From NCBI RefSeq assembly GCF_002148795.1, contig NZ_MPOB01000008.1, positions 1 through 64,000 of the forward strand: DNA of 64,000 nt, read 5' to 3'. This document shows, piece by piece, positions 42,586 through 49,675 of the stretch. The notes below the pieces were generated by a model that worked only from the letters and a program-made list of their open reading frames with translations, was not told the DNA's origin and did not search any database. The stretch's first letter is position 1, and each line of letters begins with the position of its first letter. The stretch is from Oceanibaculum nanhaiense. GTDB taxonomy: Bacteria; Pseudomonadota; Alphaproteobacteria; Oceanibaculales; Oceanibaculaceae. The position numbers and the translations under genes are program-made.

Positions 42586-43029
42586 ATGAGCTACGCCAAG
42601 ACCAAGGAAGCCATCGCCCGGCTGACGCCCGAACAGTACCGGGTGACGCAGGAGAACGGCACCGAACGCCCCTTCACCGGCGAGTACAACGACAACAAGG
42701 CACCCGGCCTCTATGTCGATATCGTGTCCGGGGAACCGCTGTTCGCCTCCTCCGATAAGTTCGAATCGGGCTGCGGCTGGCCCAGCTTCACCAAACCCAT
42801 CGTACCGGCGCATGTGGCGGAGCTGCGCGACACCAGCCACGGCATGGTCCGCGTCGAGGTGCGCTCCGCCCATGGCGACAGCCATCTCGGCCATGTCTTC
42901 GAGGATGGGCCGCGCGACCGCGGCGGCCTGCGCTACTGCATCAATTCCGCATCGCTGCGCTTCATCCCGCGCGACCGCATGGCGGAAGAGGGCTATGAAG
43001 AGTATCTCGACCAGGTAAAGGAGAGCTGA
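42586..43029 (+). CDS. msrB: Peptide-methionine (R)-S-oxide reductase
   Basis: 147 residues. The catalytic Cys is in [12 protein letters not shown] and the resolving Cys is likely in SGCGWPSF. The two CXXC pairs that bind structural zinc in most MsrB proteins are missing ([11 protein letters not shown] and [12 protein letters not shown] instead). It therefore belongs to the zinc-less subgroup. It repairs R-methionine sulfoxide. msrA starts 1 nt after its stop, so they form an operon. Confidence 0.93.
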
Positions 43030-43030
43030 C

Positions 43031-43537
43031 ATGACCGAAACCGCAATTCTGGCCGGCGGCTGCTTCTGGGGCATGCAGGATCTGATCCGCCGGCAGCCCG
43101 GCATCCTCTCGACCCGCGTCGGCTATACCGGCGGCGACGTGCCGAACGCAACCTACCGCAACCATGGCAGCCATGCCGAGGGCATCGAGATCGTCTTCGA
43201 CCCGGCCATCACCAGCTACCGCCGCATCCTGGAATATTTCTTCCAGATCCACGATCCGACGACGCCGAACCGCCAGGGCAATGATGTCGGCCCCTCCTAC
43301 CGTTCGGCGATCTATTATCTGAGCGAGGAGCAGAAGCGCGTGGCGCTGGACACCATCGCCGATGTGAACGCCTCCGGCCTGTGGCCCGGCAGGGTGGTGA
43401 CGGAGGTGGAGCCGGCCGGCGATTTCTGGCAGGCCGAGCCGGAGCATCAGGATTATCTGGAGCGCATCCCCAACGGCTATACCTGCCACTTCCCGCGCGC
43501 CAACTGGGTGCTGCCGAAGCGTAGCGCCGCCGAATAA
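43031..43537 (+). CDS. msrA: Peptide-methionine (S)-S-oxide reductase
   Basis: 168 residues. The catalytic GCFWG motif is at residues 10-14 and the supporting [12 protein letters not shown] and RSAIYY segments are intact. It reduces S-methionine sulfoxide. It is encoded directly after msrB. No terminator T-tract follows; instead GGGGCGGA/TCCGCCCC can pair across an A9 run at the start of the next promoter. Confidence 0.95.
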
Positions 43538-43570
43538 AGGGGCGGAGTAAAAAAAAAGTTCGGGCGCGCG

Positions 43571-43597
43571 TGTCACATTCCGCCCCTCTGTCTCGTC
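43571..43597 (+). promoter_or_regulatory. ECF41-type promoter
   Basis: TGTCACA (43571-43577), a 16-nt spacer and CGTC (43594-43597) match the ECF41 consensus TGTCACA-N16-CGTC. The match is 44 nt upstream of the decarboxylase gene whose operon encodes the ECF41 sigma factor itself, so the operon is probably autoregulated. Confidence 0.82.
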
Positions 43598-43641
43598 AAG
43601 CAGGCATCGACCCTGTTTACCTGACGAGAAGGAAGCGAAAG

Positions 43642-44100
43642 ATGACACCGCGTCTGAACAATCCGCACGGCCTCGGCACCGGCCCGATCAAGGCCATGGT
43701 GGCGCTGGAGGGGGCCCTGTCGAAATGCAGCCTCGACCATGGGCTGCTGGAGCTGGTGAAGCTGCGGGCCTCGCAGATCAATGGCTGCGCCTTCTGCATC
43801 CACATGCATTCGACCTGGCTGCGGTCCTCCGGCGAGAGTGAGATGCGCCTCTACATGCTGAACGCCTGGCGCGAATCCTCGCTCTACACAACGCGCGAGC
43901 GCGCCGCCCTGGCCTGGACCGACGCGCTGACCCTGCTTGCCGAAACCGGCGCACCGGACGAGGATTACGCTCTGGTAAAGGCCGAGTTCAGCGAGGAGGA
44001 ACAGGTGGACCTGACCATCGCCATCGGCGCCATCAATGTGTGGAACCGGCTGCAGGTCGGCTTCCGCGCCGCGCATCCGGTGGATAAGGCGGCCGCTTGA
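43642..44100 (+). CDS. Carboxymuconolactone decarboxylase family protein (AhpD-like)
   Basis: 152 residues. The AhpD-type redox motif is present as CAFCIHMH (CXXC plus His). This is the C member of the COE group (carboxymuconolactone decarboxylase, oxidoreductase, epimerase) that accompanies ECF41 sigma factors. It probably works as a thiol-dependent peroxidase or peroxiredoxin partner rather than a true decarboxylase; that is inference. AAGGAAG lies 8 nt before ATG 43642. It overlaps the sigma gene by TTGA. Confidence 0.88.
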   Translation: MTPRLNNPHGLGTGPIKAMVALEGALSKCSLDHGLLELVKLRASQINGCAFCIHMHSTWLRSSGESEMRLYMLNAWRESSLYTTRERAALAWTDALTLLAETGAPDEDYALVKAEFSEEEQVDLTIAIGAINVWNRLQVGFRAAHPVDKAAA

Positions 44101-44975
44101 GCCATCAGGCCGCCCTCACCGGCCCGTTCGAGGCGCAGCGGCCGCGGCTGCTGCGTCTCGCCTACCGCATGCTGGGCTCCCGCGCGGAATCCGAGGATAT
44201 CGTGCAGGAGGCCTGGCTGCGCTGGCAGGCCGCCGACCGCAGCAGCGTCGCAGAGCCGGCGGCCTATCTCAGCCGCATCGTGACCCGGCTGTGCCTGGAT
44301 GCGCTGAAATCCGCCCGCGCACGGCGCGAGACCTATATCGGCCCCTGGCTGCCGGAGCCGGTCGCCGAACCGCCGGAAGAGGAACCCCGCGCCGACGAGC
44401 TGACCCTGACCCTGATGCTGGCGCTGGAGCGGCTGTCGCCGCTGGAGCGCGCCGCCTTCCCGCTGCATGACGTGTTTGCGGTGCCGCTGGGCGAGATCGC
44501 CGCGACGCTGGAACGCGAGCCGGCCGCCGTGCGCCAGCTGGCCGCGCGCGCCCGCCGGCATGTGCGCGAAGCCCGGCCGCGCTACGCGGTCGGGCGGGAG
44601 GAAGGCGAGCGGCTGGCCCGCGCCTTCTTCGATGCCTCCTCGAAGGGCGATGTGCAGGCATTGAGCGCCCTGCTGGCCGAGGAGGCGGTGCTGCACGCCG
44701 ATGGCGGCGGCAAGGTGATCGCCTTCCACAACCCGATCATCGGGCTGGCGCGCATCCTGCGCCTCTATGCCGGCCTGCGGCGTAAATACAGCCCCGAGCA
44801 GATCGTGCTGCTGCGCCCGCTGCGCATCGACGGGCTGCCCGGCTATCTCAGCCGCGAACGCGACGGCATCCTGCAGACCACCGCCTTCGACATACGCGAC
44901 GGCCGCATCGCCGCCATCTACATCACCCGCAACCCGGATAAACTCGCCCGGCTGGTGGATGAGGTGGGGGTGTGA
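44097..44975 (+). CDS. ECF41-family RNA polymerase sigma factor with SnoaL-like C-terminal domain
   Basis: 292 residues. Sigma region 2 (RLAYRMLGSRAESEDIVQEAWLRW, by segment) and region 4 (LSPLERAAFPLHDVF) are followed by a SnoaL-like extension. All three ECF41 signatures are present: WLPEP (84-88), DGGGK (202-206) and NPDKL (279-283). No anti-sigma gene is nearby; in ECF41 factors the C-terminal domain controls activity. The start is TTG 44097 within the stop of the decarboxylase gene, so it is translationally coupled. Confidence 0.93.
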   Translation: MSHQAALTGPFEAQRPRLLRLAYRMLGSRAESEDIVQEAWLRWQAADRSSVAEPAAYLSRIVTRLCLDALKSARARRETYIGPWLPEPVAEPPEEEPRADELTLTLMLALERLSPLERAAFPLHDVFAVPLGEIAATLEREPAAVRQLAARARRHVREARPRYAVGREEGERLARAFFDASSKGDVQALSALLAEEAVLHADGGGKVIAFHNPIIGLARILRLYAGLRRKYSPEQIVLLRPLRIDGLPGYLSRERDGILQTTAFDIRDGRIAAIYITRNPDKLARLVDEVGV

Positions 44976-45013
44976 AATGCAAAACTCAATTTCTGAGTAT
45001 TATCTAACTGTGT

Positions 45014-45544
45014 TTAGGTGAGTGAGCGGGGATGAATCTCAACCAACCTTCCCCTGCGGTCAGCAACGCTATTGCGAAAAGCGGCAACGACACCTCTCTC
45101 AACCGCAGAGGAGTCCACAATGCAAGCCGTCATGCCGGAAATTCTCTCATCAGAAAACCACTGCTCGAACTGGTCGAGGCCACCAACTCGCCCTAGCGGT
45201 TTAGGCTCGAAAGAATTTAATCGTAACATAACAGCTTCAATATAGTTCATCGACCGATGATGAAAATAACTCATGATAAACTTATGATCAAAATGTGGCT
45301 TAGGGAAAACCGGCCTACCACGTAAATCGATTATCGTCTTAATGGAATTTTTAGCAAGAACGCCCAAAAGAACATTCTGATCTATATTATCCAAAGTTAC
45401 GAATACAATAGATGCGATCTTCTCATAAGCTCCAGTGAAAAGATCGAGCTGCTGAGGATGAAGTCCATCTACTATCACACGTTCCGAAAGCTCATTCTTC
45501 GAGGCCGATGTGATAGGGAAGCTCAGTATGTTATTCTCCCGCAT
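45014..45544 (-). CDS. Small unknown protein with a degenerate DUF488-like pattern, partner of the deaminase
   Basis: About 176 residues, not a recognised named protein. Residues 62-103 (LAKNSIKTIIDLRGRP ... PHFDHK ... MNYIE) resemble the DUF488 first half: a helix, a strand, then D-R-R-P (IDLRGRP at 72-78). The C-terminal part (ACIVDSSAVERGVV, around residue 141) resembles the DUF488 CxxxxCHR segment with the CHR reduced to VER. ATG 45544 is chosen for AAGG 9 nt upstream; ATG 45550 and TTG 45565 are also possible. It overlaps the deaminase stop by 14 bp, so the two are translationally coupled. Function unknown. Confidence 0.7.
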   Translation of the reverse strand: MRENNILSFPITSASKNELSERVIVDGLHPQQLDLFTGAYEKIASIVFVTLDNIDQNVLLGVLAKNSIKTIIDLRGRPVFPKPHFDHKFIMSYFHHRSMNYIEAVMLRLNSFEPKPLGRVGGLDQFEQWFSDERISGMTACIVDSSAVERGVVAAFRNSVADRRGRLVEIHPRSLT

Positions 45545-47216
45545 CGACATGAGCCTTAGTCTCAAATTCTGGAATCAGTTTGACTGCCTCACGCTCTACA
45601 GCATCTAGCTCGCGCAGCCTAACCGCATAGAAGGGCACTCCTCCCCTCTTAGGTGCATATCGACCATTCGATTCTTTGATCTCACCCCGCTTGACGAAAA
45701 AATCTTCATACATCCGTGGGCCAACACCAGTGTATGGAACGACCGCCATCTTGGTCTGAGCCCGAGCTTGCTCCGATCCAGAACCGAAGGCTGGCAATTC
45801 GCTTACTATAGCATCGGAATGGAGTTCGCAGGCGAGGCTTTTAGTATAAGGTTCGATAAAGTAAACGCGTGACACGCCGGCCGCCACGAGATGCCGAGCG
45901 CAATTATGGCACGGATAAGTTGTTACGTAGAGTGATGAATTGACGGTCTTTGCACCCGAACGGGCTGCCGCCAATAGCGCCGTCATCTCAGCGTGTATTG
46001 CACGCGAATATTCGATTGCATCCTTAACGCCAGGCATATCACGGAGCCTAGATGACACAGAAGTCAACACGTCACTAACTTTAGCCGAAACCGTTTCTCT
46101 CGATTCCGCAGCCAGATCTTTTCCCATCACTTCATCTAGCGGCACGAGCTGTTTGGCGATGTCATCAGAAAGATTCTCGGCCATCCACATGGCAATCTTC
46201 TCGTAGAGCTCGTGCTTTTTTCGATCATTATGGCAGCCGATAAACGTTCCTTTCTCGGAATCAAACTCCCAAGCGAAACAACGATTGTCTGGATTGGAAT
46301 CGCCATCGTATATCCCCCCACCGAACTTAGGGGGGTCGTTAACCCCCGTGGCAATAAGTGTCCCATCAGGCGACATAAGAGCGGCACCAACCTGACGCGA
46401 AAGACATGCAGACTGAAGAGAGGCCGCATAAGCGTGATAAATCGCGCGTTCACCGCTCGTTGGACGAACCAATTGCTCATCAAGCAATAAATGAATGAAC
46501 CGATCAATGTCGACATTCATCGCCGCTCCACTGGGCGAGTCGCTCGTATTGTCGAGAAAGAAATCCGCGAGATGGAAGGCGTCGCGAACGCGTTGCCCAT
46601 ACTTGTGTTCGTCGTCCTTCGCGTCGCGCCGCATAAAGTTGACAACTTTTTCCCGAGGAACTCCCCCATACTTCACGCCTTGGACCTTCGTTCCAATCAA
46701 GCGCTTTTCGCGCTTGGACTCGTCACAATGAACCGCGACCAGCCGGAACGAGAGGTCATACACCTGCCGCAAGAGATGCACCTCCTCAGGATGCTTGAGC
46801 GAGTCAAGTACAAAGGCAAGTTTGCTCTCACCCGGCGTAGCTTCTCCCCGAGCAGCCTTGATTTTAGTGATGACGGCGACAGCCAAGGCATGCCCACCAT
46901 AATCTTTGCGTAATTTATCGCCGAGATTTTGTAGCTCAGAAGCTCTCTGAAAGCGCGTCAAACCCTCGTTCGCACCCTCTACGATTTCTGGAAGCTTAGG
47001 ATCCAAAATTTGTATAATTAGATTGCTTAGCTTAACCGGTACAACTGTGTAACCAGCTTCCTCCAGCATAACGCAAATACGCTTACCCGCTGTGGATGTT
47101 CCTGCACCAGCGTGGCCTACAACACCGATCACTAACTCTTTAGACGTCGGCGAAATATTAGCGATGTCGGGCAAAGACGCGTCATTAGCGGCGGTCATCT
47201 TCGGTTTAGTCGCCAT
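45531..47216 (-). CDS. P-loop/deoxycytidylate deaminase fusion, anti-phage AvcD/DcdV type
   Basis: 561 residues. The N-terminal P-loop domain has GHAGAGTSTAGK (34-45) with Thr where the classic Walker A Lys would be, and the FVLDSLKHPEEV segment (135-146) typical of this family. The C-terminal dCMP-deaminase domain has zinc ligands HAE (H408, catalytic E410) and PCHNC (C436, C439). Members of this architecture deplete deoxycytidine nucleotides during phage infection. The gene is AT-rich compared with its surroundings. It is followed, overlapping, by the 176-residue unknown gene. A housekeeping dCMP deaminase is unlikely given the length and fused P-loop. Confidence 0.87.
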   Translation of the reverse strand: MATKPKMTAANDASLPDIANISPTSKELVIGVVGHAGAGTSTAGKRICVMLEEAGYTVVPVKLSNLIIQILDPKLPEIVEGANEGLTRFQRASELQNLGDKLRKDYGGHALAVAVITKIKAARGEATPGESKLAFVLDSLKHPEEVHLLRQVYDLSFRLVAVHCDESKREKRLIGTKVQGVKYGGVPREKVVNFMRRDAKDDEHKYGQRVRDAFHLADFFLDNTSDSPSGAAMNVDIDRFIHLLLDEQLVRPTSGERAIYHAYAASLQSACLSRQVGAALMSPDGTLIATGVNDPPKFGGGIYDGDSNPDNRCFAWEFDSEKGTFIGCHNDRKKHELYEKIAMWMAENLSDDIAKQLVPLDEVMGKDLAAESRETVSAKVSDVLTSVSSRLRDMPGVKDAIEYSRAIHAEMTALLAAARSGAKTVNSSLYVTTYPCHNCARHLVAAGVSRVYFIEPYTKSLACELHSDAIVSELPAFGSGSEQARAQTKMAVVPYTGVGPRMYEDFFVKRGEIKESNGRYAPKRGGVPFYAVRLRELDAVEREAVKLIPEFETKAHVDAGE

Positions 47217-47382
47217 ATGCCCCCCCGAACATCGCTCTCAAGATAGTTTCGCCTCAAATTCCACCACAAGGGGGAAGACCATCTTGCTCATTAACCCTTT
47301 GTACGTTCCCACCTCATAAGTCGATCTTGTCTTACTGACAAGTCGCCCATCTTTTCGATTAACGCCGCCGCTTTCGCTCCCC
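47217..47382 (-). promoter_or_regulatory. Upstream region of the deaminase operon with candidate promoter
   Basis: On the minus strand TTGTCA (47336-47341), a 17-nt spacer and TATGAG (47313-47318) form a plausible promoter, giving a 5' leader of about 90 nt. A perfect inverted repeat TTGTC-TTACT-GACAA (47327-47341) overlaps the -35. In described AvcD systems a non-coding RNA next to the gene inhibits the deaminase, so this leader is where such an RNA could lie. None can be recognised by sequence. Confidence 0.4.
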
Positions 47383-48930
47383 TCACTCCCACTCGATTGT
47401 TCCCGGGGGCTTGGAGGTGATGTCGTAGGTCACGCGGTTCACGCCTTTCACCTCGTTGATGATGCGGGTGGCGACGCGCGACAGGAATTCCATGTCGAAA
47501 TGGTAGAAATCGGCGGTCATGCCATCGACCGAGGTGACGGCGCGCAGCGCGCAGACGAACTCGTAGGTCCGCCCATCCCCCATCACGCCCACGGTCTGCA
47601 CCGGCAGCAGCACGGCGAAGGCCTGCCAGATCGTATCATACAGCCCCGCATTGCGGATCTCGTCGAGATAGACGGCATCGGCCTGGCGCAAGATATCCAG
47701 CTTCTCCCGCGTGATGCCGCCGGGGCAGCGGATGGCGAGGCCCGGCCCCGGGAAGGGGTGGCGGCCGACGAAGCGGTCGGGCAGGCCCAGCTCGCGGCCC
47801 AGCGCGCGCACCTCATCCTTGAACAGCTCGCGTAAGGGTTCCACCAGCTTCATGTTCATGCGCGCGGGCAGGCCGCCGACATTATGGTGCGACTTGATGG
47901 TCACGCTCGGCCCCCCGGTGAAGGACACACTCTCGATCACATCCGGGTAGAGCGTGCCCTGGGCCAGGAAATCGGCGCCGCCGATCTTCTTCGCCTCGGC
48001 CTCGAACACGTCGATGAACAGCTTGCCGATGGTCTTACGCTTCAGCTCCGGGTCGCTCTGGCCTTCCAGCGCGCCGATGAAGGTGTCGCTGGCGTCCACA
48101 TGCACCAGCGGGATGTTGTAGTGGTCGCGGAACATGGTCACGACCTCTTCCGCCTCGTTCAGGCGCATGAGCCCGTGATCGACGAACACGCAGGTCAGCT
48201 GGTCACCGATCGCCTCGTGGATCAGCAGGGCCGCCACCGAGGAATCGACGCCGCCCGACAACCCGCAGATCACGCGGCCGGAGCCGACCTGTTTGCGGAT
48301 CGCCTCCACCGCCTGCTGGCGGAACGCGGCCATCGTCCAGTCGCCTTTGCAGCCCGCCACCTTCAGCACGAAATTATGGATCAGCTTCGCGCCGTCCGGG
48401 GTGTGCACCACCTCCGGGTGGAACATCAGCCCGTAATAGTGCCGCGCCTCGTCCTCGATCAGCGCATAGGGCGCGTTCTGCGACAGCCCCTTGACCTGGA
48501 AGCCGGGCGGCAGCTTGGTGATGCGGTCGCCATGGCTCATCCACACCGTGTGCTTCTCGCCCACCCCCCAGAAGCCCTCGAACAGGCCGGAGGGCGCCTG
48601 CACGTCGAGCAGCGCGCGGCCGAATTCGCGGTGATGGCCGCTCTCCACCGTGCCGCCAAGCTGTGCCGCCATGGTCATCTGGCCATAGCAGATGCCGAGC
48701 AGCGGCACGCCCATGTCGAACACCAGCTGCGGCGCGCGCGGGCTGCCTTCCTCCGCCGGGCTGGCCGGCCCGCCGGACAGGATGATCGCCTTGGGATCGA
48801 AGTCGCGGATGCGCGCGGGATCGACGTTGAACGGGAAGATTTCGCAATAGACGCCGGCCTCGCGGACCCGCCTTGCGATGAGCTGCGTGACCTGGCTGCC
48901 GAAATCGAGAATCAGGATGCGGTCTGTCAT
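47383..48930 (-). CDS. guaA: GMP synthase (glutamine-hydrolysing)
   Basis: 515 residues. The class I glutamine amidotransferase domain with GICYGQM (catalytic Cys) comes first, then the ATP-pyrophosphatase loop GLSGGVDSS and the C-terminal dimerisation domain ending in PPGTIEWE. It converts XMP to GMP. guaB is encoded 780 nt upstream in the same direction, separated by a GNAT gene. Its 3' end borders the AT-rich insert and appears intact. Confidence 0.96.
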
Positions 48931-48943
48931 GGCGGGCTCGTTC

Positions 48944-49675
48944 TCAACTTTCTTGCGTGGGGCTGCCGGCAGGTCCGCCTTGCGGCTTTTCCTGTGGCTT
49001 TTCTGGCGGCTTTTCTGGCGATCTGTGGTGGGGCCTGTCGAGCGGGCTGTCGAGGCGCGGAATCACGCGGCGCACATCGATCCAGTCATAGGCGGTTTCC
49101 GGTATTTCCTCCTCGCCGAACGGCGTCCCCATCTGCGAGGGGATGCGCTGGCCGGGGGCGGCGCCGAAGCGCAGATAGAAGCTCTCCGCCGGCTCATTGT
49201 CCGACGGCGCCCAGGCCCGCACGGACAGCTGGCCGACCGCTGCCATCGCCTTGAAGGCCGACGCCAGCAGGCGGCGGCCCACGCCCTGGCGGCGGCGGCC
49301 CGGATCGGTATGGATGGCGTAGATTTCCGCGTCCAGCGCCACATCCTCCTCGGAGCGAGGCGGGCCGAAGGCGATGAAGCCGACGATGGTCTCGTCCGCC
49401 GGTTTGTCGTCTTTCGCGGGTTGCTGCGGCGGCGTGCCGGGTGCAGGTGCGGGCGCTGGCGGGGGCACCAGCGCGGCAATCAGCACCATATTGTTGGTGC
49501 TCTCGATCACCTCGCCCCAGAAGGCGGCGGCGCGGACATCGGCGAAATCCTCGAACAGCTCGTCCGGGACAGGCCGACCGATCAGGCTGCGCAGCTGGAC
49601 GCGCGCGACTCCGGTCGCATCGTCCAGCTCGGCGACGCGGACAGTCAGGATATGGTGCTGGCCGCTGTCGGTCAC
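48944..49675 (-). CDS. GNAT-family N-acetyltransferase with proline-rich inserts
   Basis: 243 residues. The acetyl-CoA loop is seen in [17 protein letters not shown], and the [10 protein letters not shown] segment completes the fold. Two low-complexity pieces are unusual: a Pro/Ala-rich loop of about 30 residues (around 70-95) inside the fold and a C-terminal tail with repeated [12 protein letters not shown]. It lies between guaB and guaA, 13 nt before guaA, probably in one transcript. Substrate unknown. Confidence 0.85.

Follow-up and report, generated by a model that had tools for sequence, protein, structure and literature searches.

The window analyzed here, a stretch of 64,000 nucleotides of Oceanibaculum nanhaiense (source genome of 3.84 Mb in 40 contigs), contains an AT-rich insert of ~2.4 kb at positions 44976-47378, in which the GC content is 48-52%, compared with 64-70% in the surroundings. 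The insert carries two minus-strand genes, avcD and a gene for a 176-aa partner protein, and is flanked by a sigma-factor-like gene (44097-44975, plus strand) and guaA (47383-48930, minus strand). A previous sequence-only reading had described two overlapping genes in an AT-rich insert, and both open reading frames, their 14-nt overlap and the drop in GC were confirmed. Both flanks (window positions 43000-44975 and approximately 47379-48954) are kept in three congeners, with 86-94% identity to the window for the main pieces, whereas the DNA in between differs, and the avcD/partner pair is therefore an insert in a variable slot. In one congener, the slot holds an HNH-type protein and a VapC-like PIN gene, as read from the sequence, the former with a weak PtuB-like match in PADLOC (0.0011) and the latter with no PADLOC match. 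A second congener carries a gene pair including a PDC-M68B-like ATPase (1.6e-52), and the third has type II genes for restriction and for methylation (1.5e-96 and 2.3e-91). The window pair occupies a variable slot with mostly defense-like cargo, and the interval between the sigma-factor gene and guaA (window 44976-47378; loci L209, L210 and L211) is a cargo hotspot in the genus.

The first gene of the pair, avcD (45531-47216 including the stop codon, minus strand), encodes a 561-aa member of the AvcD/DcdV anti-phage family of deoxycytidine-nucleotide deaminases. The protein matches NF041025 ("anti-phage dCTP deaminase") at 1.9e-134 with 448.8 bits, above the curated cut-off of 400 bits, residues 27-514 covering model positions 1-437 of 437, and it is also matched by PADLOC dCTPase (1.1e-145) and PF00383 (1.6e-14). 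A P-loop-like motif, GVVGHAGAGTST, is found in the N-terminal kinase-like domain (residues 31-42; 47091-47126, minus strand). The deaminase has the zinc motifs HAE (residues 408-410; 45987-45995, minus strand) and PCHNC (residues 435-439; 45900-45914, minus strand), and the HAE...PCxxC pattern is kept in 110 of 110 AvcD rows. DSLKHPEEV is present as well. The assignment to the AvcD/DcdV type made at first reading holds. Members of this family deaminate dC nucleotides, and those of the studied systems are held by AvcI RNA until phage halts transcription (PMC10511110). From its sequence, we infer that the window AvcD deaminates dC nucleotides and acts against phage. An Rfam search of positions 44900-47600 for an AvcI-like RNA gave no match.

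The partner gene (45014-45544 including the stop codon, minus strand) begins within avcD and shares 14 nt with its end. As a single query, the window partner found no true relative in Pfam, PADLOC, NCBIfam, PHROGs, the PDB, plasmids, phages, genome contigs or 289 genomes, and its relatives were detectable solely via neighborhood comparison and profiles. Inspection of AvcD loci revealed a similar gene overlapping avcD in three other genomes of the same class. An AvcD alignment was run against 84,980 species genomes, and we took the 80 nearest loci, which are nearest relatives rather than a random sample; the partner lies directly downstream of avcD in 56 of these 80, usually with an overlap of 4 or 8 nt between its start and the avcD stop and elsewhere with its start within ~12 nt of that stop. 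Among viral-contig AvcD loci, 3 of 31 have the partner. A Sphingomonas homologue shares 49% identity over 162 codons with the window protein, and the nucleotide differences between the two genes number 72, 50 and 99 at codon positions 1, 2 and 3, respectively. The idea that the small open reading frame is spurious was ruled out by these codon-position differences, together with the homologues found at the same place in the nearest loci.

A tree of 110 AvcD rows, with SH-aLRT as the measure of support, has one clade (SH-aLRT 98) that is marked by the partner, which accompanies 60 of its 64 rows, four being without it, and none of the 46 rows outside; these counts are inflated by relatedness among the loci. 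The partner label requires 2 changes on this tree versus 36-37 when shuffled. Partners occur in at least five phyla (Pseudomonadota, Myxococcota, Acidobacteriota, Nitrospirota and Bdellovibrionota). When partner profiles were run against two sets of whole genomes (385 and 398), each strong match adjoined AvcD. In a sample of 398 Pseudomonadota genomes, an AvcD above the NF041025 cut-off is present in 11 and the partner in 3 of those 11, the window's genome being counted in both figures. The E. coli AvcDs examined (L193 and L198) have no downstream gene, indicating that AvcD defense in general does not depend on the partner, and a Vibrio plasmid AvcD (L197) is also without the partner. The small gene had been proposed to be a dedicated partner of the deaminase, and rather than being missing beside nearly all close homologues it was found beside most of the nearest ones; its conservation shows a partnership in which it is dedicated to AvcD and co-inherited with it. 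In the open-access papers searched, we found no description of this gene pair, nor any that connects AvcD to a DUF488-like protein, to TIR-APAZ or to a clamp motif. On two plasmids (L194, 6477-8770, and L195, 1-1354), genes for multiubiquitin and a ThiF adenylyltransferase adjoin AvcD-partner pairs, possibly as a neighboring defense cassette.

The partner had also been called DUF488-like, and this description stands at the level of the family, although the window protein alone gives no match to PF04343 (DUF488) in Pfam. Six of 57 partner family members match PF04343 (best 5.6e-9), and hhalign of the partner profile against independent DUF488 proteins gave P 2.8e-8 and a probability of 95% over the DxR half of the domain. 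The DxR motif common to both lies within IDLRGRP (residues 72-78; 45311-45331, minus strand), with hhalign aligning D141/R143 of DUF488 to the DxR of the partner; across the 57 members, R75 and Y101 are invariant and D73 is kept in at least 90%. A second element, C141...V148-E149-R150 (45095-45124, minus strand), is by family comparison a degenerate remnant of the DUF488 CxE...CHR site, the window partner having C-x(6)-VER at this place. Thus, the IDLRGRP and the worn CxxxxCHR segment noticed at first reading are both present. In DUF488 controls, conservation of the CxE...CHR site is at least 90%, and the partner family has lost it throughout. On these comparisons, the partner is best called DUF488-derived and is probably non-catalytic. 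The loss of this site also argues against the idea that the partner is an active DUF488-type enzyme acting on what AvcD produces, whether nucleotide or DNA. The retained DxR and Tyr and a distant fold resemblance to cysteine phosphatases could be cited for this idea, but we consider it highly improbable.

Predicted structures of two partner members agree in showing an unstructured tail of ~43-47 residues followed by an alpha/beta domain with a high-confidence core. The nearest solved folds to the two models include cysteine phosphatases, with best Z scores of 7.4 and 8.2 that lie near the method background; Foldseek with the same models gave no E below 0.001, and a profile search found no DUF488 structure in the PDB. 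DUF488 has been placed in a rhodanese/phosphatase-like fold, and the middling cysteine-phosphatase matches of the models are only consistent with this placement. A standalone DUF488 protein (L174, 1204-1698, minus strand) ends in RQASLF, a clamp-motif-like C-terminus, and DUF488 proteins may contact the replisome more widely.

The N-terminal tail of the window partner contains QLDLF (residues 32-36; 45437-45451, minus strand), a predicted beta-sliding-clamp-binding motif. Residues 1-43 have no predicted secondary structure, with pLDDT of about 52-63 over most of the stretch, and the second modeled member is similar. The Gln of the motif is kept in 54 of 57 partners within a tail that is otherwise unalignable, and the forms that start there are QLxLF, QxSLF, QLSLPF or QLSFxF. 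Sliding-clamp motifs come in penta- and hexapeptide forms, the canonical one being Q-aliphatic-x-[LM]-[FL] or a six-residue form; the strongest clamp peptide named is QLDLF, and a phage-display winner is LQLELDF (PMC11139829). The window motif is identical to the former, and five- and six-residue forms alternate at one partner site, a behavior shared with established clamp ligands. We settled on the motif patterns once the first partner sequences had been seen. Under the strict definition (QLxLF/QLxLxF), 16 of 57 partners match, versus a mean of 0.45 and a maximum of 3 in 1000 shuffles, and under the canonical definition of PMC11139829, 27 of 57 match versus a shuffle mean of 4.6. Only 2 of 669 other genes from the same loci and the window have the strict motif within their first 60 residues (Fisher p = 3e-17 for partners against this background, a value that overstates independence because the members are related). 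Some partners have a weak motif or none, such as NVEFR (L082), EGNLF (L163) and ERSLF (L047), and those fused to TIR have the weaker forms QSNLF and QASLL. Taken together, the motif suggests that the partner binds the beta sliding clamp (DnaN). AvcD itself was considered as a bearer of the clamp motif and rejected, with 0 of 110 strict matches. A further short hydrophobic motif (resembling HLRLV, NILSF or VVAFS) recurs near the clamp motif in both the partners and the short proteins described below, in reversed order; in the window it is NILSF (residues 5-9), and it may bind AvcD.

Where AvcD loci lack the DUF488-like partner, a downstream gene of 54-94 aa is often present, and in 18 of 64 such loci, versus 2.0 expected from shuffles, this short gene encodes a clamp-like motif near its N-terminus. 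The motifs of these mini-partners include QLELDF (L131), QLELEF (L138), QLELNF (L140), QMQLELDF (L141) and QLSLDF (L134), and the proteins of one lineage, together with a small number from elsewhere, can be aligned over the motif, a linker and a C-terminal helix-like stretch. When the mini label was set by hand on the AvcD tree (19 rows, including three missed by the regular scan), it required 4 changes versus 17.9 when shuffled. From these motifs and the tree label, at least two AvcD lineages have an adjoining protein with a predicted clamp motif. In the Vibrio/Acinetobacter AvcD clade (L004, L008, L009, L010, L104, L111, L124 and L197), a different short open reading frame (~53-90 aa) abuts or overlaps avcD downstream; it has a SWPxWK-like motif and no clamp motif and is possibly another unrecognized second gene. 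Directly upstream of avcD on E. coli plasmids, where the AvcI RNA would be expected, there is a 61-aa open reading frame (L193, 2618-2803; L198, 2730-2915), which in L193 reads MSNQLTVIDGY...GNVVDFF...FDKILKKEIILD and recalls mini-partners in its shape.

The clamp motif is read from sequence alone and some members deviate from it, so the resemblance could be coincidental and the tail could instead hold an AvcD-binding or other linear motif. We judge this to be quite unlikely, considering that the exact strongest clamp peptides recur, with QLDLF in the window and QLELDF in mini-partners, that penta- and hexapeptides alternate in at least two separate AvcD lineages, and that the motif is enriched over the 669 background genes.

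In 5 of the 80 nearest loci and on a Rhizobium gallicum plasmid (L038, L047, L055, L057, L076 and L196), the partner domain runs into TIR-APAZ, followed by a short pAgo. The TIR-APAZ part matches PADLOC Aga_TIR-PNTD1-PNTD2 at 8e-109 to 4e-136, and the short pAgo matches pAgo_I at no worse than 2.5e-173. A single 1136-aa protein combines partner, TIR-APAZ and pAgo in Neorhizobium (L076; pAgo_I 6.6e-173). These hybrid operons join an AvcD deaminase to SPARTA, a system that hydrolyzes NAD(P)+ once guide RNA and target ssDNA have activated it (PMC11156904). The R. gallicum plasmid deaminase (L196, 4920-6537), which stands ahead of the partner-TIR-APAZ and pAgo genes, is annotated as two overlapping frames, a hypothetical protein and a deaminase, and this split reflects decay, a frameshift or a sequencing error.

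The fusions argue for a partner domain that does more than inhibit AvcD and serves to carry or gate effectors, and they bear upon the main rival explanation, in which the partner is a protein antitoxin or inhibitor of AvcD that replaces the AvcI RNA of Vibrio and E. coli, with the clamp motif coupling its release or turnover to replication. Such a role would fit the control of characterized AvcD by an antitoxin RNA (PMC10511110), the small overlapping gene, which resembles a toxin-antitoxin layout, and the lack of an Rfam RNA in the window locus, although a missing Rfam match does not show that an RNA antitoxin is absent. However, a domain that did nothing but inhibit a deaminase would hardly be expected to occur in nature fused to TIR-APAZ and Argonaute, and the effector gene stands first; we therefore regard an antitoxin role as unlikely. 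The partner could also be an effector in its own right that plugs the clamp and blocks replication together with dC depletion. Caulobacter SocB is reported to plug the clamp and block replication in this way, the partner motif is of the high-affinity type, and two replication-directed attacks would be synergistic, but a large conserved DUF488-like domain is unnecessary for plugging and the TIR-APAZ fusion suggests an effector-carrying module, making this very unlikely in our estimation.

The first reading had offered inhibitor, sensor or second effector as roles for the second protein; the clamp motif, the mini-partners and the TIR-APAZ/Argonaute fusions go beyond that reading and favor an adaptor or sensor role. 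We propose, with a moderate degree of confidence, that the window pair is a two-gene anti-phage module in which the AvcD effector is tied to replication forks by a clamp-binding, DUF488-derived adaptor/sensor. What the analysis shows is a co-inherited gene pair set in a variable slot, whose second protein descends from DUF488, has lost the catalytic residues, bears a conserved motif and in relatives is fused to SPARTA; clamp binding, binding of the partner to AvcD and a gating role are what we infer. AvcD would be the effector, deaminating dC nucleotides, and the second gene product would be its dedicated adaptor/sensor, a folded DUF488-derived domain behind a flexible tail whose QLDLF would bind DnaN. 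Through the partner, the deaminase would be kept at active replication forks or gated by them, as the TIR-APAZ/short-Argonaute effector would be in relatives. Docking at the fork might either place dC destruction there or sense disturbance of the replisome, such that dC nucleotides would be destroyed at the place and time at which phage DNA replicates or phage disturbs the replisome. More tentatively, and with somewhat more doubt than belief, we suggest that a large part of the AvcD family consists of clamp-coupled immune modules, and that the same docking domain elsewhere joins the deaminase to SPARTA in a two-effector system watching replicating DNA.

Characterized AvcD has been treated as one enzyme plus an RNA, and a conserved second protein in at least five phyla points to a major branch with another regulator or sensor. 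If the partner binds the sliding clamp, it would provide a direct, testable link between a nucleotide-destroying defense and the replisome, and would help to explain action on phage replication with the host spared. The TIR-APAZ/Argonaute fusions reveal a component common to two separately studied immune systems, and fusion of the partner to an RNA-guided suicide system suggests a new way to couple such defenses to replicating DNA.

Among known systems, DUF488 proteins (PF04343; DUF488-N3a/N3i in Pfam) share with the partner the core around DxR, and some partner members match Pfam DUF488, whereas the window protein has no such match, the CxE...CHR site is lost and an N-terminal tail with the clamp motif is added. 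The ligands of the beta clamp (Pol III, Pol IV, Hda, MutS and others) have in common with the partner a QLxLF/QLxLxF motif in a flexible segment (PMC11139829), but the partner differs from them in being an adaptor of a defense locus for which binding is predicted. SPARTA, composed of a short Argonaute and TIR-APAZ, is related through partner relatives that are fused N-terminally to TIR-APAZ with a pAgo gene or domain next to it; unlike SPARTA, the window locus is without TIR, APAZ and pAgo, and the SPARTA genes of the hybrids come after an AvcD gene. The AvcID/DcdV/"dCTP deaminase" systems of V. cholerae, E. coli and P. mirabilis share the deaminase family and active site with the window AvcD, which by homology would be a nucleotide-depletion effector. 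While the characterized systems of this kind comprise one protein and an RNA antitoxin (PMC10511110), the window locus has a conserved, overlapping second protein and belongs to a separate AvcD clade.
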